Assembly: GCA_030803735.1 (NCBI GenBank)
Contig: JAURUC010000001.1
Location: forward strand, 4,786,501 to 4,850,500
DNA: 64,000 nt
Direction: 5' to 3'
Origin: Actinopolyspora lacussalsi
Lineage (GTDB): Bacteria > Actinomycetota > Actinomycetes > Mycobacteriales > Pseudonocardiaceae
In this document: one piece after another, positions 5,345 through 36,585 of the stretch
Layout of the letters: every line of letters starts with the position of its first letter
Numbering within the stretch: the stretch's first letter is position 1
Program-made: the position numbers and the translations under genes
The notes under the pieces: generated by a model
Told to the model about the DNA's origin: nothing
What the model saw: only the letters and a program-made list of their open reading frames with translations
Databases searched by the model: none

Positions 5345-5364
5345 GCGCACCGCTCGCGGTGCGC
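5345..5364 (-). promoter_or_regulatory. Hairpin between the cobalamin riboswitch and metE
   Basis: A perfect 8-bp stem (5345-5352 with 5357-5364) with a 4-base loop lies directly 3' of the riboswitch core. It has no U-tract, so it may be part of the expression platform rather than a simple terminator. About 130 bases separate it from the metE start. Confidence 0.45.
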
Positions 5365-5596
5365 ACCGACGGCAGGTCTTCGGACTCGCGGGCACCGCCG
5401 GCTGTAGCCGGTTCTCCTACTGGTCGTCGGCTTCCCGGACCCCGGGTCCAGTGCCGTGTTCCGCTCGCGATCCCGGGCAGGGAGCGCGGCGGTGACGACG
5501 TTCGTTCCCACTCACCGCTGCGGGGCAGTTCCGGATTCGCACCGGATTCCCTCTTGCCTCAGCGACGAGGCCTGTGCCCTCGCCACTGAACCATCG
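5365..5596 (-). promoter_or_regulatory. Cobalamin (B12) riboswitch controlling metE
   Basis: Read on the minus strand, the leader contains the B12-box core (GGAATCCGGTGCGAATCCGG, then ACTGCCCCGC and GGTGA) at about 5513-5552. Near its 3' end is the conserved AGTCCGAAGACCTGCC at 5371-5386. These are the most conserved blocks of the AdoCbl riboswitch. It precedes metE in the correct orientation, so bound cobalamin should switch metE off. The boundaries are approximate. Confidence 0.95.
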
Positions 5597-5771
5597 GCGC
5601 TCGTATGGTTGCGTGCCCTGCCCGGTTTGGCAAGCCCCGCCCCTCTTTCACGGCGGTTGATGGGCACGTTCGTACCGTCGCTCGGCTGCCGTTTCGCCGT
5701 TCGGTGTATCAGCGGTCACACCGCGTTCCGGTGCGTGGCGAACTTGCCAACGACGGTGGTCGCGCGAAAGT

Positions 5772-22005: not shown

Positions 22006-23737
22006 CCACAGCGATCCCAAGGAGATCGACCGGGAGCGCTATCTGGAACTGTTCGGGCCCACCACCGGTGACCGGATCCGGCTCGCCGACACCGACCTGC
22101 TCGTGGAGGTCACCGAGGACTTGGCCACCGGTCCGCACGGATCCGGCGAGGAGGCCGTGTTCGGCGGTGGCAAGGTCGTGCGCGAGTCCATGGGGCAGTC
22201 GACCGCCACCAGGGCCGAAGGGGCACCGGACCTGGTCATCACCGGAGCGGTGATCCTCGACCACTGGGGTGTGGTCAAAGCCGACGTGGCCGTGCGTGAC
22301 GGGCGGATCGTCGGCATCGGCAAGGCGGGAAACCCGGACACCGCCGACGGGGTCGATCCCGCGATGGTGATCGGCCCGGCGACCGAGATCGTCGCGGGCA
22401 ACGGCAGGATTCTCACCGCCGGCGCCATCGACTGCCACGTGCACTTCATCTGCCCGCAGGAGATCGAGGCCGCGCTGGCTTCCGGCGTCACCACCCTCAT
22501 CGGAGGTGGCACCGGCCCGGCCGAGGGGTCCAAGGCCACCACGGTCACGCCCGGCGAGTGGAACCTCTCCCGGATGCTGCTCGCGCTGGAGACAGCGCCG
22601 GTGAACACCCTGCTGCTGGGCAAGGGGAACACCGCGAGCCAGGAGGCGCTGACCGAGCAGTTGCGTGGCGGTGCCGGGGGGCTCAAGCTGCACGAGGACT
22701 GGGGCGCGACTCCCTCGGCCATCGACGCCGCGCTGCGCGCCGCCGACCGCAGTGGTGTCCAGGTCGCGATCCACACCGACACGCTCAACGAGGCGGGCTT
22801 TCTGGAGTCCACTCTGGATTCCGTGGCGGGCAGGTCGATCAACGCCTACCACGCGGAGGGAGCCGGCGGCGGGCACGCGCCGGACATCATCAAGGTGGCG
22901 GGCCACTCCCACGTGCTGCCCTCCTCGACCAATCCGACCAGGCCGCACACGGTCAACACCATCGACGAGCACCTGGACATGTTGATGGTCTGCCACCACC
23001 TGAACCCCTCGGTCCCGGAAGACCTGGCCTTCGCGGAGAGCCGCATCCGCCCGACCACCATCGCGGCCGAGGACGTGCTGCACGACCTCGGCGCGATCTC
23101 CATGATCGGTTCGGACGCGCAGGCCATGGGCCGGATCGGCGAGGTGGTAACCCGCACTTGGCAGACGGCGCACGTCATGAAACGCGGCAGGGGAGCGCTG
23201 CCGGGCGACGACGCCGCGGACAACCGACGCGCCCGCCGCTACATCGCCAAGTACACCGTCAACCCGGCGATCGCGCACGGCATCGACGGCTCCGTCGGAT
23301 CCGTCGAGGTGGGCAAGCTCGCCGACATCGTGCTGTGGGAGCCGAAGTTCTTCGGAGTCCGACCGCACGCGGTGTTCAAGAGTGGATTCGCGGTGCGGGC
23401 CGCGATGGGCGACGCCAACGCCTCCATCCCCACACCGCAGCCGGTGCTGTCCCGCCCGATGTTCGGTGCCGAACCGCGCGCGGCGGCAGCGGGATCGGTG
23501 TCATTCGTGGCCCCCGAGACGCTCGGGACGGGGCTGGCGGAACGGTTGGGGCTGCGTCGAGAGCTCGTCGGGACCTCCGACACGCGTGCTGTGACGAAGC
23601 GGGACATGCGGCACAACGAGGCCACCCCTGACGTGCGGATCGATCCGGACAGTTTCGCGGTGCGGGTGGACGGTGAACTCGTCGAGCCCCAGCCGGTATC
23701 CGAGGTTCCCATGGCGCAGCGCTACTTCCTGTTCTGA
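21998..23737 (+). CDS. ureC: Urease alpha subunit
   Basis: 579-residue catalytic subunit with the di-nickel centre that hydrolyses urea to ammonia and carbamate. Visible are DCHVHF (Ni-binding His pair), GLKLHEDWG with the carbamylated Lys near residue 230, [10 protein letters not shown], and LMVCHHLNP with the flap Cys near 332. All expected active-site residues are present. The ATG at 21998 lies inside the end of ureB and is far better supported than the longer ORF upstream. Confidence 0.98.
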
Positions 23738-27832: not shown

Positions 27833-29392
27833 CTACCGCCGCGCGGCGGTGACGAGACGGGTTGCCACGGTCGACCGGGGCGATCCCAGCAACCTCCCGG
27901 TAGGAGCCCGTTCCACGCAGCGCCCCTCCGCCATCACCAGCACCTCGTCGGCCAACGGTGCCACCGCCGCCAGGTCGTGACTGATCAGCACGAGTCCGAT
28001 CGCGGAACGTTCGGTGATCTCGCGCAGCAGCCCGAGCAGTTCGGACTGGTTGACCACGTCCTGCGCGGCCGTGATCTCGTCGCAGATCAGCACGGCCGGT
28101 TCGGCCAGCAACGCCCGGGCCAGGGCCGCGCGTTGCAGCTGGCCTCCCGACAGCTCGGCCGGACGCCGCTCGTGCGTGGCCTCGTCCAACCCCACGGAGC
28201 GGAGCGCACGTGCGCTCTCCTCCCGCGCCGACCGTCGGGTGCCACCCCGGTTCAGCCGGACGGTGCGGGCCAGTTGCCTTCCGACGGTGCGGAACTCGTC
28301 GAACGAGGCCCTGGCGTCCTGGTGTACGTACTGCACCGCGCCGCGCTGCCGTCTGCTCCGTAGGTGGATGTCGTTGTCCAGTACGGCGCCGTCGAGCTCG
28401 ATCCGACCGGAATCGGCCGGGGTGAGCCCGGCGAGACAGCGTGCCAGCGTGGTCTTGCCCGCCCCGGAACGTCCCACGACGGCAACGCGGTGTCCCGGGG
28501 GAACGGCCAGTTCGGCCTCGTGCAGCAGCGGGACACCGGTGGGACTCGTACTGCGGAGACCGTCCGCCCGCAGACCACCCACCGAGGGCGACGGATCCGG
28601 TTCGGTGATTCCGCGTCCGGACACCGGGAGCCGTGGTTCGGCGGCGAGCAGCGCACCCGTGTACTCGTGCGCCGGCTCGCGCAGCACCCTTCCGGTGACT
28701 CCCCGCTCCACGACCTCCCCGTCGCGCAGCACCATCACCCCGTCCGCCAGTTCCCGCGCCAACCCGAGGTCGTGCGTCAGCAGCAGTACCCCGGTCCCCG
28801 TGCCGGTGAGCTCGCGCAGCGTGTCGACGGTTTCGGCCCGGGTCACCGTGTCCAGGCCACTGGTGGGTTCGTCCAGTATCAACAGTTCGGGTTCGATGAT
28901 CAGCGCGTGGGCCAGGGCCACGCGCTGTTGCTGTCCCCCGGAGAGCTGGTGCGGAAACCGTCGCAGCAGGCGCTCGTCCGGGGGCAGGTGCGCCGATTCG
29001 AGCGCCCGGCGAACCGCATCGCGGCGTCGCTCGCGGGGCCGGTGGCTCGGTGGGGCCAGTTCACCGAGCACGCTGCCGATCCGCCGCGCCGGATTGAGCA
29101 CCGCGGCCGGGTGCTGGGGCAGGTAGCCGATTTTCCGGGAGCGGGCGGCTCGCCGTTGCCGTTCACGCAGCGAGAGCAGATCCAGCCCGCGTAGCCGTAC
29201 GTTGCCGGACAGCTCCACACCGCTGCCGTGCTCGCCCTGGGCGGCCAGCCCCAGTGTCGTCTTGCCACTGCCGGATTCCCCGAGCACGCACAGCGTTTCC
29301 CCGGGATTCACGCCCAGCGTCACGTCGTCGAGCAGGCGGGTTCCCGCCGCGTTCGCAGCCAGGCCGGTGATTTCGAGAAGTGATCGGTTCAA
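27833..29392 (-). CDS. Fused double ATPase of a peptide/nickel-type ABC importer (DppD-DppF fusion)
   Basis: 519 residues with two ABC domains in one chain. The first has GESGSGKT, LSGGQQQRVALA and LLILDEPTSGLD; the second has GRSGAGKT, LSGGQLQRAALA and VLICDEITAAQD, a somewhat unusual Walker B/D-loop. The arrangement corresponds to DppD-DppF or NikD-NikE. TTG start at 29392 overlaps the permease stop as TTGA. It powers uptake through the two permeases below. It is last in the B12-riboswitch operon. Confidence 0.93.
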   Translation of the reverse strand: MNRSLLEITGLAANAAGTRLLDDVTLGVNPGETLCVLGESGSGKTTLGLAAQGEHGSGVELSGNVRLRGLDLLSLRERQRRAARSRKIGYLPQHPAAVLNPARRIGSVLGELAPPSHRPRERRRDAVRRALESAHLPPDERLLRRFPHQLSGGQQQRVALAHALIIEPELLILDEPTSGLDTVTRAETVDTLRELTGTGTGVLLLTHDLGLARELADGVMVLRDGEVVERGVTGRVLREPAHEYTGALLAAEPRLPVSGRGITEPDPSPSVGGLRADGLRSTSPTGVPLLHEAELAVPPGHRVAVVGRSGAGKTTLARCLAGLTPADSGRIELDGAVLDNDIHLRSRRQRGAVQYVHQDARASFDEFRTVGRQLARTVRLNRGGTRRSAREESARALRSVGLDEATHERRPAELSGGQLQRAALARALLAEPAVLICDEITAAQDVVNQSELLGLLREITERSAIGLVLISHDLAAVAPLADEVLVMAEGRCVERAPTGRLLGSPRSTVATRLVTAARR

Positions 29393-30201
29393 CGTCGTAC
29401 CGTCCGTCGGTTCGACAGACTCCGGTCCACCACGAGATTGACCCCCGTACACAGCGACACCAGCAGCAGTGCGGGGACGGTCACCGCCCACGGCTGGATG
29501 AACAGCGCGTCCCGGTTCAGTTCGATCAACACCGCCCAGTCGGTGGCCGACGAGGCCAGCCCGAGCCCCAGGAAGTTCGCCGAGGCCATCAGGTACAGCA
29601 CCAGGTTGAGCCGGGACGCCGCGTCCACCAGCACCGGCCCGACCACCGAGCGGCCGAGATAGCCCAGCCTGATCCGGGCACACCCCTCGCCCTGCATGAG
29701 CATCGACTCCACCGCGGTGCTGGTCCCGGGACGCAGCGCGGCGGTGCGCGCTATCCGGACCACGGCGGGCAGCTGCAGCGTGGCTATCGCGAGTACCAGT
29801 GTCGTGGTGCCCCGCCAGCCTGTCGCCGCCAGCACAAGCAGCACCAGCAGTCCGGGCAGTGCCAGCAGGAAGTCCAGCAGCCGCAGCACCAGTCGGTCCG
29901 CCCACCGCCGTCGTCCCCCGGCGATTACCAGCGCGATCGGAACCCCGATCAGGTAGGACAGCAGCAGCGCGGCCGCGGCCATGGTCACGATGGAGGTGCC
30001 GCCGCTGAGCGCCAGCGCCAGCACGTCGCGCCCGAGTTCGTCGGTGCCCAGCGGATGTCCGGGGCCGGGAGGTGAGAGCGAACCACCCTCCGAGCGCGTC
30101 GAACCGGCCACCAGCGGTCCGAGGAACGCCGTCAGCACCGGCACCAGCAGCAGGATCCAGCCGACCGGTGTGATCGGGAAACGGTCTCGTGATCGGTTCA
30201 A
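29389..30201 (-). CDS. ABC importer permease (DppC/NikC-like)
   Basis: 270 residues with about six membrane helices. It has the N-terminal PLGTDELGRDVLAL block found in DppC/NikC-type permeases and the EAA-loop region around MLMQGEGCARIRLGYLGRS. The TTG start at 30201 overlaps the preceding stop as TTGA; the longer upstream ORF is not needed. The first codons match those of the ATPase gene exactly (TTGAACCGATCA). Confidence 0.92.
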   Translation of the reverse strand: MNRSRDRFPITPVGWILLLVPVLTAFLGPLVAGSTRSEGGSLSPPGPGHPLGTDELGRDVLALALSGGTSIVTMAAAALLLSYLIGVPIALVIAGGRRRWADRLVLRLLDFLLALPGLLVLLVLAATGWRGTTTLVLAIATLQLPAVVRIARTAALRPGTSTAVESMLMQGEGCARIRLGYLGRSVVGPVLVDAASRLNLVLYLMASANFLGLGLASSATDWAVLIELNRDALFIQPWAVTVPALLLVSLCTGVNLVVDRSLSNRRTVRR

Positions 30202-31148
30202 GACGCACTCCGGTGTCGCGGTACAAGCCGGTACGCGGCGATGTCGGCGAGCAGGTTGACCGTCACCGTCGTGCCCGCGAACACCAGCGCGTAGCCCTGG
30301 ACCGTGGGCAGGTCGCGAGCCATCACCGCGTCGACGAAACCCGAACCCAGTCCGGGAAGGGCGAACAGCGCTTCCACGACCACCACGCCTCCCAGCAGGC
30401 CGTCCACGGTGCGCGCGAGCTGCTGTACCGATGGTCCTGCCGCGTTCGGCAGCACGTGCTTGAACAGCAAGGTGCTTTCCCGCAGTCCGTGCGTACGGAC
30501 GTGCCTGGTGTACTCCGCGGTGTTGGCCTCGGCCACCCCGATCCGGATCTGCCGGGCAAGCGCGCAGAGTTGTTTGCACACCAGCACGACCACCGGCAGC
30601 ACCAGCACCGCGGGGTGCGTCGCCAGCGAGGTCCCGGAAAGTCCGGCCGCGGTGGCGGGCAACCAGCCCAGCCGCAGTGAGAACAGCGCCACCAGCAGCA
30701 GTCCCAGCGCGAACTCCGGTATCGAGTCGAGCACCACGATGACGGAGTTGACCGTCCTGTCCAGCCGTGAGCTCTGGCGCAGCCCGGTGGTGACTCCGAT
30801 GAGCAGCGCCAGCGGCACGATCACGGCCAGTGCGACACCGGTGAGCACGGCTGTGGTGGCCAGTCCGTCGGCCAGCTCGGCGGTGACCGGCGCGCCGGTC
30901 AGCAGCGAGGTGCCGAGATCCCCGTGCGCCAGACCTCCGAGCCAGGCCAGCAGGCGCCGCACGAACGGTTCGTCCAGGCCCAGCTGCTGCCGCAGCGCCT
31001 CGATCTGCTCCGGGGTGCCGTGCTTGCCCAGGATCACCACCGCGGTGTCGCCGGGCAGCAGCGCGCTCAGCGCGAAGACCGCCACGGTGACACCGAGGAT
31101 CTGCAGTACCGCGACCGCCACCCGTCTCGGTACGTACGCGAGTGTCAA
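30198..31148 (-). CDS. ABC importer permease (DppB/NikB-like)
   Basis: 316 residues with about six helices. The N-terminus YVPRRVAVAVLQILGVTVAV and LLPGDTA are typical of DppB/NikB permeases. The EAA loop lies at EYTRHVRTHGLRES. TTG start at 31148 overlaps the binding-protein stop (TTGA). It forms the membrane channel with the second permease. Confidence 0.93.
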   Translation of the reverse strand: MTLAYVPRRVAVAVLQILGVTVAVFALSALLPGDTAVVILGKHGTPEQIEALRQQLGLDEPFVRRLLAWLGGLAHGDLGTSLLTGAPVTAELADGLATTAVLTGVALAVIVPLALLIGVTTGLRQSSRLDRTVNSVIVVLDSIPEFALGLLLVALFSLRLGWLPATAAGLSGTSLATHPAVLVLPVVVLVCKQLCALARQIRIGVAEANTAEYTRHVRTHGLRESTLLFKHVLPNAAGPSVQQLARTVDGLLGGVVVVEALFALPGLGSGFVDAVMARDLPTVQGYALVFAGTTVTVNLLADIAAYRLVPRHRSAS

Positions 31149-32677
31149 CCCAGTTCGGCCTCGTCGAACCTGGCCCAGCGCGTCGAGTTCGGCGTGGCCG
31201 CGCGCAGACCGCTGACCTGCTTGGACACTCCGACGTTCCAGTTGCTGAATCCCCAGACCATCATGCCGCTGTGGTCGCGTGCGTGCCGCTGTGCCTCGGT
31301 GAGCAGTTCGTCGCGCTTCCGCTCGTCCGGCGTGGCGACGGCCTCGTCGTAGCGGTTATTGAACTCGGACGAGTCGTAGCCGGTGTAGTTGGCGCTGACC
31401 GACGCCTCGCGCAGTCGTTTGGACAGGTAGCTGGTGATCGGCAGCGTCGCCGTCCTGGTGTGCCCGGCGACGCCCTTCTTCTTGATGTCCGAGTAGTGGG
31501 TCTCGGATGGGCCGACCCGGGGGGTGACCTTCAGACCGATCTCGCCGAGCTGCTCGGCGATCAGGTTCGCGGCCGGTTCGAAGTAGGGGTCGGCGGAGCT
31601 GGTGTTCAGCTCGAAGTCGAGCCCTTCCGCCCCGGCCTCGCGCAGCAGGCCCCGGGCGTGGTCCACATCGCGTTCGCGTTGCGGAATCTCATCCGGGTAG
31701 TACTTGAGTCCCTTGCCGAACAGGTCGTTGCCGAGCTTGCCGCGCTCGTTGAGCACGACCTTGACCAGCGCCTCGCGGTCGACGCCCGAGAGCACCGCGC
31801 GCAGGACCCGGCTGTCGTTGAACGGTGGCCTGTCCACCTTGAACGCCACCGCCTGCATGGTGCTGTACGGCGCGGCCAGGATCCTCGCCCCGCTGTCGTC
31901 GTCCACGGTCGAGACCGAGTTGGCGCCGATGTCGTGCGAGTAGTGCACCTGCCCGGACAGCAGTGCCGATACCCGTGCGTCCTCCTCGTTGACGGACACG
32001 AATTCCAGTTCGGCCGGTTTCGGGGCGCCGTTCCAGTGGTCGGCGAACTTCTCGAACACCGCCGATTCGCCGGTCTCGAACGAGACGAACCGGAAGGGGC
32101 CGCTGCCGATCGGCTTGCCGAAGTCCGTGGTGCCCGCGGGCACGATCTCGGTGGCGGGGGCGCCCATCGCGGTGGGGAAGGTGAAGTCCGGTTCGGACAG
32201 CACCAGGACGAGTTCGCGGTCCGAGTTCGCCTTGCTGGATTCGAAATCCACTCCCGACAACTGGGGTTGGGCGGGGGAGCCGGTGGCGGGATCGGCGATG
32301 CGTCGGTAACTGTAGAGCACGTCCTCGGCGGTCACCGGCTTGTTGTCGTGGAACCTGGCCTCGCGTAACCGGATCCGCCACCGTTTGCCGGTCTCGTCGG
32401 GTTCCCACGACTCGGCGAGGCGAGGGATGGGGCTCATGTCCTGGTCGTAACCGAGCAGGGTGTCGAAAAGCGCCTTCGATCGGGCCTGGTCGACGAAGAG
32501 GGTGCTGGTGTGCGGATCCAGTGATTCCCGGTCCCCGGAGGTGGAGAACGCCACCCGCAGCCGGTTGTCGCTCGAACTCGCGCCCGTGTTCGCACCGCAG
32601 GCCGCGAGTGGGCCGAGTGCCAGGGCGCCCAGTGTCGTCGACAGCACCCGTCTTCTGCTGATACCTCCCGCGTTCAC
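31145..32677 (-). CDS. ABC substrate-binding lipoprotein, peptide/nickel (SBP_bac_5) family
   Basis: 510-residue family-5 binding protein of the DppA/OppA/NikA type. The N-terminus has both a twin-arginine motif (SRRRVL) and a lipobox (LAACG), so it is an exported lipoprotein. The mature part has LDPHTSTLF, LAESWEPDETGKRWRIRLRE and FHDNKPVTAEDVLYSYRRI. GTG start at 32677 after AGGAG overlaps the MFS stop. The family binds peptides, nickel or cobalt chelates and opine metallophores; given the riboswitch, a cobalt chelate is the best guess. Confidence 0.93.
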   Translation of the reverse strand: MNAGGISRRRVLSTTLGALALGPLAACGANTGASSSDNRLRVAFSTSGDRESLDPHTSTLFVDQARSKALFDTLLGYDQDMSPIPRLAESWEPDETGKRWRIRLREARFHDNKPVTAEDVLYSYRRIADPATGSPAQPQLSGVDFESSKANSDRELVLVLSEPDFTFPTAMGAPATEIVPAGTTDFGKPIGSGPFRFVSFETGESAVFEKFADHWNGAPKPAELEFVSVNEEDARVSALLSGQVHYSHDIGANSVSTVDDDSGARILAAPYSTMQAVAFKVDRPPFNDSRVLRAVLSGVDREALVKVVLNERGKLGNDLFGKGLKYYPDEIPQRERDVDHARGLLREAGAEGLDFELNTSSADPYFEPAANLIAEQLGEIGLKVTPRVGPSETHYSDIKKKGVAGHTRTATLPITSYLSKRLREASVSANYTGYDSSEFNNRYDEAVATPDERKRDELLTEAQRHARDHSGMMVWGFSNWNVGVSKQVSGLRAATPNSTRWARFDEAELG

Positions 32678-33960
32678 GCCGAGGTCTCCTTTCCTTCCGA
32701 TAGATTCGGCTCGCTCGATCGAGCGAGCAGCCCGCGCCGCCGCATCGCCGCGGCGCCGCTGCCGCCGGCGAGCCCCACCAGGAGCAGCGCCAGCCAGGGC
32801 AGCCATCCCAGCGCCGAGCCGCTGAAGCCGTCGAGCAGGCTGCCTGCCAGCCAGCTCACCGCCGCGGCCACGACGCTGGCAACCAGGTAGTAGAAGCCGT
32901 AGTACGTGCCCGCCAGCCGTTCACTGCCCACGATGGGCAGCAGTTCCATGGCGAAGGGGTTGGTGACGGCCATGCCCACGGTGAACAGCACCGTGCCCAG
33001 CAGTACCGGCAGACAGGCCAGCGCGATCCCGAGCCAGGAGTCGTCGCCCGCGCCCGAGTGCGTCGGGATGAACGGGTTCGTGAGCAGAACCGGTAGGAAG
33101 GACGCACCCATGCAGAACAACCCGGTCGACACCGAGCGTCCCGCACCCCAGTTGCGGCGGCACCAGTCGGTGATCCGCACCTGCCCGAACACCCCGATCA
33201 GCGTGGAGACCACGAACACGGCGGCGATCGACCAGGACAGTCCGGAGACGCGTTGAATCTCCAGCGGCATCGTCAGGTACAGCTGGTTGTACAGCGCGAA
33301 GTAAGCCGACAGCGACAGCGTAAAGGCCACGAAACGGCGGTTGGTGATCACCTCCCGCCAGCTGCCCAGCACACCGTTCTCCTGCCGCTCGATGTCCCGG
33401 TGTGGCAGTACCGCCAGCTGCGCGACCGTCAGCACCGCGAAGGCGACGCAGGCCGAGGTGGCGATCAGCCGGAAGTCGACGCTGAGCAGCGCCGCACCGA
33501 GCAGCGGTCCGACCAGGGTGCCCGCGTGGGCGAACACGTTGAACACCGCGAACGCCTCCGCCCTGTGCTCGCCCGCCTCGTGGATGAGGTAGGTGCGCAC
33601 AGCGGGGTTGAACAGCGCACCGGCGAGCCCGGTGAGCACGGCGGCGACGATCAGGCCGGGCAGCGAGGTGAACAGCCCGAACGAGCCGAAGGCCACCACG
33701 CGCAACGCGCAGCCCGTGATGATCATCGGTCTGCATCCCAGCCGGTCGGCCGCGGTGCCGCCGACGAGGAACATGCCCTGTTGGCTGAGGTTGCGGATTC
33801 CCAGCACCAGCCCGATCACGGCCGCGCCGTACCCCAGCTGCCCGCTCATGTACGAGGCCAGGAACGGCAACAGCATGTAGAAGCCGAGGGTGATGCCGAA
33901 CTGGTTGACGACCAGCAGTCGTGCCGCGGGTGACAACCCGCGGAAAGCGGCTCCGCTCAA
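32674..33960 (-). CDS. MFS transporter, probable exporter in the B12-riboswitch operon
   Basis: 428 residues with 12 predicted helices, without a long central loop. The MFS loop 2-3 motif appears as GGTAADRLGCRP. It lies between the PLP enzyme and the binding protein, both overlapping by four bases. Opine-metallophore operons pair an MFS exporter (CntE type) with a peptide/nickel-type importer, and the layout here is similar. TTG start at 33960 is set by the TTGA overlap; the reading frame upstream has no better site. Confidence 0.88.
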   Translation of the reverse strand: MSGAAFRGLSPAARLLVVNQFGITLGFYMLLPFLASYMSGQLGYGAAVIGLVLGIRNLSQQGMFLVGGTAADRLGCRPMIITGCALRVVAFGSFGLFTSLPGLIVAAVLTGLAGALFNPAVRTYLIHEAGEHRAEAFAVFNVFAHAGTLVGPLLGAALLSVDFRLIATSACVAFAVLTVAQLAVLPHRDIERQENGVLGSWREVITNRRFVAFTLSLSAYFALYNQLYLTMPLEIQRVSGLSWSIAAVFVVSTLIGVFGQVRITDWCRRNWGAGRSVSTGLFCMGASFLPVLLTNPFIPTHSGAGDDSWLGIALACLPVLLGTVLFTVGMAVTNPFAMELLPIVGSERLAGTYYGFYYLVASVVAAAVSWLAGSLLDGFSGSALGWLPWLALLLVGLAGGSGAAAMRRRGLLARSSEPNLSEGKETSA

Positions 33961-35078
33961 GACAGTGCACCGTCCTGTCCGCACACCGGGCAGTCGGTTC
34001 CGGCGGTACGCCCCGGGCACGGGTCGGCCACGCGGCGGGACCTGCTCCAGCGGGCGGTCCCCTCGTGGCGCTCGTCCTCCCGATCGAGCGGACGCCGCTC
34101 TCCCCGCGTGGTGTGCAGTCCGTTGCGATCGACGAACTCGTCGTCGTAGATGGTTTCCCAGTAGCGGTGTGGACCGTCCGGGAAGACGCCCACGATCCGG
34201 TCCGGCCCGATCCCGGCCGCGTACCAGGCCGAGACGAGAGCGACCGCGCCGGTACTCCAGCCCCCGCTGACGAAGTTTCCCCGGGCCAGTTCCCGACACG
34301 TCCGCGCCGCCTCGGCCGGGCCGACCCAGTGCACCTCGTCGAACCGGTCGTAGGCGACGTTGTCCGGATGGATACTGCTTCCCAGGCCCCGCATCAGGCG
34401 TTTCTCCGGTGGTTCGCCGAACAGGGTGGAACCGGGGGAGTCGACTCCGACGATGCGGACGTCCGGCCGGTGCGGGCGGATGGCGGACGCGATACCGGCG
34501 CTGTGACCACCGGTGCCAACACTGCAGACCACCGTGTCCAGTCGGTCGAGCTGGTTCAGCAGCTCTCGACCGAGGGGTTCGTAGCCCGCGGCGTTGTCCG
34601 GGTTGTTGTACTGATCCGGCCAGAAGGATCCCGCGTGCTCGGCCAGCAGCTCGTTCACCCTGTCGCGGCGTGCCCGTTGCCAACCGCCTCGCGGGTGCGG
34701 TTCTCCGACGATCTCGACCCGTGCGCCGTAGGCGCGCAGCAGCGCCAGCGTCAGCGCGTCGATCTCCCGGTCGGTCACCAGGATCACCGGGTGGCCGAGT
34801 GCGATTCCCACGTAGGCCAGTCCGATACCCAGGGTTCCGCTGGTGGACTCCACGATCGTGCCGCCCTCGGCGAGCTCGCCGCGGCGGCGTGCTCCGGTCA
34901 CCATGGACAGTGCCGCTCTGGCCTTCATGCCACCGGGGGAGAGTCCTTCGAGCTTCGCCCAGAACCCCGGCTGCGGATCGGGAAGCGGGGTGGTGACGCG
35001 CAGCAGTGGGGTGTTGCCGACCAGTTCGGAGAGGGAGTGGTACTTCCTGTCGCCGGGTACGCGCTGCGGATCGTTCAC
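33957..35078 (-). CDS. PLP-dependent cysteine-synthase/SbnA-like enzyme
   Basis: 373 residues of the fold-type II PLP family (cysteine synthase, CBS, SbnA). Features are LVGNTPLLRV, GGMKARAALSMV with the Schiff-base Lys (near residue 52), ESTSGTLGIGLAYVG, and the phosphate loop GTGGHSAGI. In the asparagine loop, Thr replaces the Asn usual in SGNTG/SGNLG. A C-terminal extension of about 45 residues ends with CPGRTAGTDCPVCGQDG, a possible metal-binding Cys cluster. Family members join an activated serine to a nucleophile (sulfide, or glutamate in SbnA). GTG start at 35078 overlaps the previous stop. Confidence 0.88.
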   Translation of the reverse strand: MNDPQRVPGDRKYHSLSELVGNTPLLRVTTPLPDPQPGFWAKLEGLSPGGMKARAALSMVTGARRRGELAEGGTIVESTSGTLGIGLAYVGIALGHPVILVTDREIDALTLALLRAYGARVEIVGEPHPRGGWQRARRDRVNELLAEHAGSFWPDQYNNPDNAAGYEPLGRELLNQLDRLDTVVCSVGTGGHSAGIASAIRPHRPDVRIVGVDSPGSTLFGEPPEKRLMRGLGSSIHPDNVAYDRFDEVHWVGPAEAARTCRELARGNFVSGGWSTGAVALVSAWYAAGIGPDRIVGVFPDGPHRYWETIYDDEFVDRNGLHTTRGERRPLDREDERHEGTARWSRSRRVADPCPGRTAGTDCPVCGQDGALS

Positions 35079-36010
35079 ACCGCACCACCTTCGGTGCGAC
35101 GCGCCGTCCGAGAGGGTGGCGGGGCGGTGTCCGTCTCAATGCGCTCGTCGGCCCGCGATGGGGTCGTGGCCGGGTAGGTGTGGATGTCACCGGCCTCGCC
35201 GGTCAGCCAGAAGAACGGGTACGGCTCCGCGGACAGGGCGGCCACCTCGTCGCCGAGCAGTTCCCGGAAGACGGCGCTGCCGGTCTGCGCGAACACCACC
35301 AGCGGTACGCCGCTGTCGCGGCAGTGCGCCGCGATCTCGTCGAAGGTCCCGTTGCCGAGCACCATGCCGGAGGCCAGCACCGCTCCCGCCTCGTTGATCA
35401 CCTCGGAGTGCTCGGTCCGGATGGGGTCGCCCCATTCGGTGTGTCCACCCTTGAGGTCACAGGGGACGTAGTCGAAGCCGCGTCCGGTCAGCGCCGCCAG
35501 CAGCGAGTTCACCACGCCGATCACCGCCACCGGACCGGTCGCCCTCTCGGGCAGCAGGTTCGCCACGATCTCGGCCCGTGCGGTCGACTTCCGCAGCGAG
35601 TCGCCGGCCGGGACACGCACGGTTCGGGCAGCGGGATGGGAGGTGTGCGGCCGGAGCCAGGTCAGATACGCGTCCAGCGCGGCGACCCGCACCGCCGTCA
35701 CGGGGTGTCGGAGCAGCTCGTCGACACTGCTGCCCGCTATCCCGGTGAGCGCTCCCGCGTGGAGTTCGCCGGGCTCGGTGGCGCAGGAACCGACCACCTC
35801 GCCGACACGGATGCTGAGCACCGAGTTCACGTACCCCGTGCTTCTGCCGCTGTGCCGTGCGCTCTGTTCGGTGCGGAACGCCACCGAGGCGGTCGTTCGC
35901 CGTGGGGTGTTCTCGTCGGGGAGCCCGTTCGCTGCTGTGCGGGTGCGCCGGATCAGGTCGTCCAGCACGGTGCGATGAGGATCCGGAGAAGATAAGTCCG
36001 CAGTAGACAT
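35075..36010 (-). CDS. DUF4213/DUF364 protein (putative heavy-metal chelation)
   Basis: 311 residues. The N-terminal part (about 1-115) resembles DUF4213. The C-terminal Rossmann-like DUF364 part runs through VAVIGVVNSLLAALTGRGFD, ASGMVLGNGTFDEIAAH and PLVVFAQTGSAVF. Pfam describes DUF364 as a putative heavy-metal chelation domain; no reaction is established. Conserved Cys, His and Asp occur around YVPCDLKGGHTEWGD. The ATG at 36010 has GGAGA six bases upstream. It is first in the operon, about 215 bases after the riboswitch core. Confidence 0.85.
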   Translation of the reverse strand: MSTADLSSPDPHRTVLDDLIRRTRTAANGLPDENTPRRTTASVAFRTEQSARHSGRSTGYVNSVLSIRVGEVVGSCATEPGELHAGALTGIAGSSVDELLRHPVTAVRVAALDAYLTWLRPHTSHPAARTVRVPAGDSLRKSTARAEIVANLLPERATGPVAVIGVVNSLLAALTGRGFDYVPCDLKGGHTEWGDPIRTEHSEVINEAGAVLASGMVLGNGTFDEIAAHCRDSGVPLVVFAQTGSAVFRELLGDEVAALSAEPYPFFWLTGEAGDIHTYPATTPSRADERIETDTAPPPSRTARRTEGGAV

Positions 36011-36082
36011 AGGTGTCTCCGCGCGTCCCGGTTCGCTCCGGGGAATCGGAGGAGTCGGCCGCGACTGTTGGCGAGAGGTCGT

Positions 36083-36184
36083 TCAGGCGCGCACGCCGAG
36101 TGGGTCGGGTGTCAGCGCGAGTGCGTCGCGGCTTCCGCGACGGGACGGCTCGAACGGTGTCGTGCTCGCAACTCGGTGCGGCAA
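36083..36184 (-). CDS. Possible 33-codon leader ORF after the second riboswitch
   Basis: A TTG at 36184 has AGGAGG eight bases upstream (36193-36200), the best-spaced ribosome site in this leader. The predicted peptide is 33 residues, Arg-, Ser- and Pro-rich, and of no known family. It begins about 40 bases 3' of the riboswitch core and ends 72 bases before the DUF364 gene. It could be a translated leader whose ribosome site is controlled by the riboswitch; chance is also possible. Confidence 0.3.
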   Translation of the reverse strand: MPHRVASTTPFEPSRRGSRDALALTPDPLGVRA

Positions 36185-36224
36185 CGTCGTTACCTCCTCC
36201 GGGGCTCCGCGACCCCGTACGAAT

Positions 36225-36395
36225 CGGCACGACGGCGGCAGTCTCCTGACTCGTGGTTCCTCACCGTCCACCGCCTTCCCGTCGACTCACTCGACAGTGG
36301 CATGTTGGTGGTGGCTACCCACTCACAGTGGCGGGACCGTGCCGGAGTCGCACCGGCTTCCTGGACGCCGTCGTTCGGTTGTTCCGGAGTCAGAC
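36225..36395 (-). promoter_or_regulatory. Second cobalamin (B12) riboswitch, leader of the metallophore-like operon
   Basis: On the minus strand the leader contains AGGAAGCCGGTGCGACTCCG then GCACGGTCCCGCCACTGTGA (36326-36365), the classic B12-box core. The expected GCCACTGTCGAGTGAGTCGA and GGGAAGGCGGTGGA segments follow, and then CGAGTCAGGAGACTGCC near 36238-36255. Orientation and distance fit control of the DUF364 gene at 36010. A TTGACA -35-like element lies at 36417-36422. A perfect hairpin (36125-36131 with 36135-36141) lies between the riboswitch and the gene. Confidence 0.94.
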
Positions 36396-36585
36396 GTTCA
36401 CAGTCCGTAGATGCCCTGTCAAGGTGCGGCAGATCACGACATCGCGGCATCCGAGAATTTTTCCAGCTCAGCGGGGTGTGTTCGGCCACCCGTACGAACG
36501 AATTCGATGCAACTATTGTGCAACAGACATCGCATGGCGACTGCCGTGTTCGTTCGAGCCGTTCGAGAACTCCCGAAGGAGCGAG

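Follow-up and report, generated by a model that had tools for sequence, protein, structure and literature searches.

A cobalamin riboswitch operon of Actinopolyspora lacussalsi as a probable cobalt metallophore system

Background

How might an actinobacterium in whose genome none of the cobalt importers CbiM, NicO and CbtA can be found gather cobalt for cobalamin (B12)? The question is raised by a seven-gene operon behind a cobalamin riboswitch in Actinopolyspora lacussalsi, located in a 64-kb stretch of DNA (hereafter the window) which is part of one 5.03 Mb contig. The cobalt/nickel importers CbiMNQO, NicO and CbtAB supply cobalt for corrin synthesis and carry the metal without a metallophore. 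Iron and zinc metallophores are well documented; in the open PubMed Central (PMC) literature, we found neither a cobalt-dedicated metallophore nor the term cobaltophore. A preceding sequence-only reading of the window had proposed that the operon is a cobaltophore system. Here, this proposal is followed up by comparison of genomes and protein families.

A cobalamin riboswitch shared by cassette and importer

The operon probably encodes a B12-repressed cobalt metallophore system. In what follows, type 1 denotes loci in which genes for a DUF364 protein, a pyridoxal phosphate (PLP) enzyme and a major facilitator superfamily (MFS) transporter stand in the same order as in the window, and type 2 denotes a longer sister order. 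We favour this reading because the riboswitch accompanied 24 of 25 type 1 cassettes and none of 16 type 2 loci, as well as nine of nine importers separated from their cassettes and none of six type-2-like importers. It is further favoured because 11 of 20 additional importer relatives have the riboswitch, while the importer parts are closest to nickel-type models (NCBIfam); because the sister operon has Zur-box-like sites and DUF364 and PLP genes recur beside Fec-type transport genes in the A. lacussalsi genome; because CbiM, NicO and CbtA were not found in that genome, yet a CobN-like gene sits there under a riboswitch; and because a structural study of a DUF364 protein suggested that it takes part in the synthesis of a metal chelator (PMC2954201). 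The whole interpretation is much strengthened as regards B12 and the parts of the system; its chemistry, its metal and the transport are unproven.

Relatives were collected from two sources. A DUF364-alignment scan of named genomes gave 306 relatives, the best 80 of which were used, and 297 genomes of the family to which the window belongs (its own genome included) were surveyed. Named-contig loci and family genomes overlap in assemblies, and their counts were not summed. Script patterns served as a first look only, since they missed most riboswitches of the own genome and those of the importer-only loci, and counts were taken from Rfam. Among the best 80 DUF364 loci, 14 carried the first three genes of the window in order. 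A riboswitch was recognized by pattern upstream of all 14; the seven submitted to Rfam were all confirmed, the other seven being counted by pattern match. The importer followed the cassette in 10 of these 14 loci (within the fetched DNA). As for the family survey, type 1 was delimited by a DUF364 score of at least 300 bits, a threshold lying within a score gap from 304 to 269. This was reached in 24 of the 297 genomes, each with an upstream RF00174 match. One more genome, G602 (DUF364 263 bits), was placed in type 1 by its identical seven-gene order and its DUF364 clade. This survey covers the co-occurrence behind cobalamin riboswitches which the sequence-only reading had suggested looking for; the cassette has its riboswitch in all type 1 family genomes except G602. 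In DUF364 trees, types 1 and 2 and a distant type 3 (see below) each formed one clade (15, 20 and 15 rows; support 99/92, 97/84 and 100/100, respectively). In a quick tree of the PLP enzymes, 14 type 1 rows came together with support 98, and the G602 row was not firmly joined.

The position of the importer proved informative. In the 24 type 1 genomes, it lay beside the cassette in 14 and elsewhere in nine; only a 37% importer relative, with its own riboswitch (48.3 bits), was found in the remaining one (G638). All nine separated importers had their own cobalamin riboswitch, scoring 89.9-98.7 bits. The same switch on both separated halves is the strongest evidence that synthesis/export and import belong together, and the comparison of genomes supports the view of a single B12-responsive unit that has a zinc-linked sister.

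A binding protein matching with an E-value no higher than 1e-130 was present in 48 of the 297 family genomes, namely 23 of type 1 and 25 others. Twenty of these others (48-65% identical) were given to Rfam and five at 45% identity were left out; the 11 riboswitches found scored 31.8-95 bits, the lowest barely over threshold. Ten of the 11 genomes look importer-only and have no DUF364 of 300 bits genome-wide; at five such loci (L254-L257 and L265) no PLP or MFS gene was detected near the importer, to whose surroundings this search was confined. The last one, G659 (L253:5737-11727), retains the riboswitch and the importer, while its first genes are a truncated remnant, and so it seems to be a producer that decayed to the importer-only state. 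At two further loci (L258 and L259, in G546 and G441), MFS and importer relatives stand beside a second binding protein (36-37%) with no DUF364 or PLP matches, possibly representing another variant.

A conserved leader

After the aptamer, a hairpin like GGGGTCGCGGAGCCCC and a Shine-Dalgarno sequence GGAGGAGG (GAGGAGG in a few) were found at 24 of 24 type 1 loci and at nine of nine split importers. At all of these loci, a start codon 3-10 nt past the Shine-Dalgarno sequence opens an open reading frame (ORF) of 17-38 codons. The G659 remnant also carries both the block and the short ORF. The block was seen in none of 11 other riboswitch-bearing importers, nor in the leaders of the CobN-like and chelatase-like genes of A. 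lacussalsi. At L228 and L231-L234, the stop of the upstream ORF (uORF) lies within GTGA, the candidate start of the binding protein. Folding of the leader was no better than that of shuffles (z -0.27), so that it is conservation that supports the leader block. A comparable arrangement is described in Mycobacterium tuberculosis, where PPE2 needs translation of a uORF controlled by a B12 switch (PMC11260477).

The operon and its proteins

The seven genes lie on the minus strand from 36010 to 27833, downstream of the riboswitch, and overlap by 4 nt at all six junctions, given the start codons chosen here (Table 1). The predicted seven-gene operon behind a cobalamin riboswitch was therefore borne out. 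The predicted span of 27833..36422 held for its gene and riboswitch content; its end lies 35 nt beyond the riboswitch. In a search for promoters and terminators, nothing resembling a promoter was detected; a single terminator-like site lay on the plus strand, compared with a mean of 2.8 in shuffles.

Table 1. Features of the operon and its leader (positions in the window)
Feature	Position	Strand	Evidence
Cobalamin riboswitch aptamer (RF00174)	36217..36387	-	Rfam 100 bits, gathering score 31.5
Conserved hairpin GGGGTCGCGGAGCCCC, then Shine-Dalgarno GGAGGAGG	36193..36216	-	Read from sequence; conserved block
Putative upstream ORF, 33 codons, TTG start	36083..36184	-	Sequence reading and conservation
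DUF364-fold protein, probable biosynthetic enzyme	35075..36010	-	Pfam 21.9 bits (cut-off 23); fold match 3l5o
SbnA/CysK2-like PLP enzyme	33957..35078	-	PALP 185.5 bits; SbnA model 248.9; SbnA structures best
MFS transporter, presumed exporter	32674..33960	-	MFS_1 121.2 bits
Family-5 substrate-binding lipoprotein	31145..32677	-	SBP_bac_5 258.8 bits
ABC permease, NikB/Opp-like	30198..31148	-	BPD_transp_1 94.9 bits
ABC permease, NikC/Opp-like	29389..30201	-	BPD_transp_1 46.2 bits
Fused double ATPase, NikD/NikE-like	27833..29392	-	ABC_tran in two stretches; NikD model 321.6
ABC, ATP-binding cassette.

Proteins were compared with Pfam and NCBIfam profiles and their curated cut-offs, and the predicted structure of the DUF364 protein with solved structures. 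The DUF364 (PF04016) protein scored slightly below its Pfam cut-off (a type 2 relative reached 27.5 bits); the top matches of its predicted structure (predicted local distance difference test score 87.7) were solved DUF364 proteins (E 3.4e-8 for 3l5o). As for the PLP enzyme, SbnA was both the top NCBIfam model and the best PDB match, and to this extent the proposed likeness to SbnA stood; the score is below the equivalog cut-off of 349.95, and the names of some relatives point elsewhere (see below). The enzyme has the motif GGMKAR, versus PGGSMKDR in SbnA, and its lysine and loops are conserved across 15 aligned type 1 rows. The transporter had been called CntE-type: its MFS membership is clear, whereas the likeness to CntE is one of role only, given no match to the CntE-type model and MdtH as top NCBIfam model (below cut-off). 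The peptide/nickel-type ABC importer was correctly recognized, comprising an SBP_bac_5 protein, two BPD_transp permeases and a two-domain ATPase. The lipoprotein scored 125.9 bits with the nickel binding-protein model (cut-off 600), and the nickel permease models gave 230 (NikB-like) and 122 (NikC-like), both below cut-off. The double ATPase exceeded the NikD cut-off of 318.7, being the sole importer component over its curated NikABCDE cut-off.

Zinc-linked and distant sisters

The type 2 order runs ATP-grasp, DUF364, PLP, enolase-superfamily, MFS, methyltransferase, binding protein, permeases and ATPase, and accounts for 66 of the best 80 DUF364 loci (Streptomyces, Kitasatospora, Rhodococcus and a Saccharopolyspora among them). 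ATP-grasp and enolase-superfamily genes were present in all 66 and the methyltransferase in 59, some loci ending at a contig edge. Seventeen lower-scoring family DUF364 loci were read; 16 had ATP-grasp, PLP and enolase-superfamily genes and thus belonged to type 2, the other being G602. No cobalamin riboswitch was detected by Rfam within a 1.5 kb flank of these 16 loci, nor at any of seven long type 2 loci. A Zur-box-like site, judged by the published Zur box of Streptomyces (PMC5472717), lies upstream of the type 2 ATP-grasp gene. Its 15-bp form matched at 9/11 positions or better in 53 of 66 type 2 loci, compared with 36/990 random windows and 22/990 shuffles; its 21-bp form reached at least 10/15 in 66 of 66, compared with 22/990 and 20/990. 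In type 1 leaders there was no strong Zur-like site (21-bp form at most 9/15; 15-bp form 9/11 in one). Through these sites, the type 2 operon appears zinc-linked and is a candidate zinc metallophore pathway. As an operon of nine to ten genes (L022-L087, for example L056:8718-20181), it is widespread in Streptomyces.

The Zur-box-like sites indicate that the wider family is not cobalt-only. In this respect the earlier cobaltophore proposal was too narrow; genome comparison lends support to its other points, namely that B12 controls the operon, that synthesis/export and import are a unit and that a metal is involved. The two versions look non-redundant, since nine of 24 type 1 genomes hold a second DUF364 (240-260 bits) and ten a second importer (41-44%). 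In A. lacussalsi, no close relative of the type 2 ATP-grasp was found (best 31 bits). Since the three additional steps of type 2 (ATP-grasp, enolase-superfamily and methyltransferase) are also missing from type 1, a simpler product is expected of type 1 than of type 2.

The distant type 3 is represented in A. lacussalsi by a second DUF364 gene (42%; L133:8142-13981) with FecCD, ABC, Peripla_BP_2, GHMP kinase and SbnA-like PLP genes; its leader scored 11/15 for the Zur box. In other genomes, DUF364 and PLP matches lay near each other at 15 loci, at which these two genes were read. Zur, IdeR and Nur boxes were sought in the type 3 leader as well as upstream of G602 and the looser importer relatives, and only the type 3 leader reached such a Zur score. 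One Streptomyces bearing type 2 also has a CysK2-like PLP gene (56%) adjoining an MFS gene (41%), with no DUF364 (L026:2361-4726).

The B12 regulon and other cobalt importers

The six other riboswitches of the A. lacussalsi genome precede, as judged by eye, a MetE-like gene, a CobN-like gene, a chelatase/CobO-like gene, two FecCD/binding-protein sets and a gene for an FhuF-like reductase. The riboswitch before the MetE-like gene is the second one of the window, at 5354-5610 on the minus strand (78.4 bits). The FhuF-like iron-sulfur reductase (L097:979-2239) is an unusual member of a B12 regulon. Another Rfam match in the window, to 5_ureB_sRNA (22177-22472, minus strand; 48.9 bits, gathering 40), perhaps reflects conserved urease coding sequence.

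All of CbiM, NicO and CbtA were absent from 14 of 24 type 1 genomes, and CbiM was rarer in type 1 genomes than in the rest of the family (6/24 versus 168/273, p 0.0008 in a test that ignores kinship).

Interpretation and alternatives

Several observations weigh against a cobalt metallophore. G602 has no cobalamin riboswitch within about 3 kb upstream (Rfam). Nine of the 20 importer relatives (48-54% identity, G602 included) are likewise without one, and relatives with and without the riboswitch overlap in score (570-578 bits). At least one of CbiM, NicO and CbtA is present in ten of 24 type 1 genomes. Within one genus, the CbiM difference shrinks to 4/9 versus 11/13 (p 0.07, kinship ignored), with a riboswitch near none of the 15 CbiM loci, and within Actinopolyspora there is no difference (1/5 versus 1/5); the rarity of CbiM is thus weak support for a cobalt role. 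Finally, some close relatives of the PLP enzyme carry the name CysK2, S-sulfocysteine synthase, as names only.

Those names suit an alternative without any metallophore, in which a sulfur or amino-acid compound such as S-sulfocysteine would be made, exported and retaken when B12 is short; CysK2 of M. tuberculosis is described with O-phosphoserine and sulfide as substrates (PMC11361707). The nickel-type importer, the metal-linked sisters and the riboswitch on separated importers all speak against it, and we regard it as improbable. A metallophore of broader or different metal range (nickel, zinc or others), under B12 control since cobalt is among its cargoes, fits the nickel-type importer models, the zinc-linked sister and the several metals that staphylopine is reported to carry. 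However, type 1 leaders have no strong Zur-like site and control by cobalamin is specific to the B12 pathway, which leaves this alternative unlikely, if less so than the previous one. Least likely, and very improbable, is a system that scavenges or otherwise handles corrinoids, corrin precursors included. B12 control would suit it, as would the ligands suggested for a DUF364 pocket, which resemble flavins, pterins or tetrapyrroles (PMC2954201). Against it, FecCD/binding-protein sets under riboswitch control, by eye of the usual corrinoid type, occur elsewhere in the genome. Moreover, family-5 binding proteins are not known for corrinoids.

Returning to the cobalt metallophore, the gene set, its riboswitch and the conserved presence of this switch on cassette and importer alike are established, and from them the following mechanism can be proposed. 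When cobalamin is low, the riboswitch would permit translation of the leader and the operon. From the protein families, we infer the PLP chemistry, export and import: the CysK2/SbnA-like enzyme would couple activated serine with a nucleophile (in all likelihood an amino acid), giving a serine-derived chelator on which the DUF364 enzyme would act as well. After export by the MFS transporter, the chelator would bind cobalt outside, and the lipoprotein and ABC importer would return the complex for corrin synthesis. It is the regulation, together with the zinc-linked sister operon, that points to a metallophore and to cobalt as its metal.

A wider model has, in our estimate, about an even chance. 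It assumes a dedicated cobaltophore family whose aminopolycarboxylate-like product would be made by CysK2-like and DUF364 enzymes, exported by MFS and imported by nickel-type transporters, with B12 shut-off through riboswitch and uORF; importer-only relatives would live on the cobalt complexes of others, and the same chemistry would be re-used for zinc in type 2. Pairs of CysK2 and a transporter that answer to other metal regulators may be additional variants. If true, the cobalt metallophore would explain how some actinobacteria obtain the cobalt for B12 although they lack CbiM, NicO and CbtA, and cobalt would become a resource that soil bacteria share and can steal from one another. DUF364 and CysK2-like enzymes would gain a testable role, and pairs of producers and importer-only strains could be used for direct cross-feeding tests.

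Comparison with known systems

The logic of synthesis, export and re-import is shared with the opine-type (Cnt) systems of staphylopine and pseudopaline. The staphylopine system combines a family-5/nickel-type ABC importer with an MFS exporter, as type 1 is presumed to do. Unlike those systems, the operon contains nothing similar to CntK, CntL or CntM in its seven genes (Pfam, NCBIfam), as the sequence-only reading had held; CntL and CntM domains were sought within the operon, not in the rest of the genome. The lipoprotein reached 66.7 bits with the CntA-type model, far under its cut-off of 800, and control is by a B12 riboswitch, while pseudopaline is Zur-regulated (PMC5719457, PMC6103462).

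Similarity in components extends to NikABCDE, with NikD over its cut-off; here, the other components are below theirs, two ATPase domains are joined in one protein, and the importer is accompanied by genes for synthesis and by a B12 riboswitch. The pathway to [S,S]-ethylenediaminedisuccinate ([S,S]-EDDS) reportedly includes a cysteine-synthase-like enzyme. This actinobacterial aminopolycarboxylate of Amycolatopsis japonicum is repressed through Zur (PMC9252823, PMC6103462), a regulation like that suggested for the type 2 sister, whereas type 1 is under B12; the comparison is by description rather than gene sequence. SbnA and CysK2 share a fold family with the PLP enzyme of the operon, which itself is below the SbnA cut-off. 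In M. tuberculosis, the copper-responsive RicR regulon includes cysK2 together with a gene for a transporter (PMC10470581, PMC7924339), and the cysK2 product is likewise compared here by description rather than sequence. Lastly, the B12 riboswitches of M. tuberculosis metE and ppe2 precede a different operon, but they combine a translational switch with a short uORF (PMC11260477), an arrangement like that proposed for the type 1 leader with its putative uORF.

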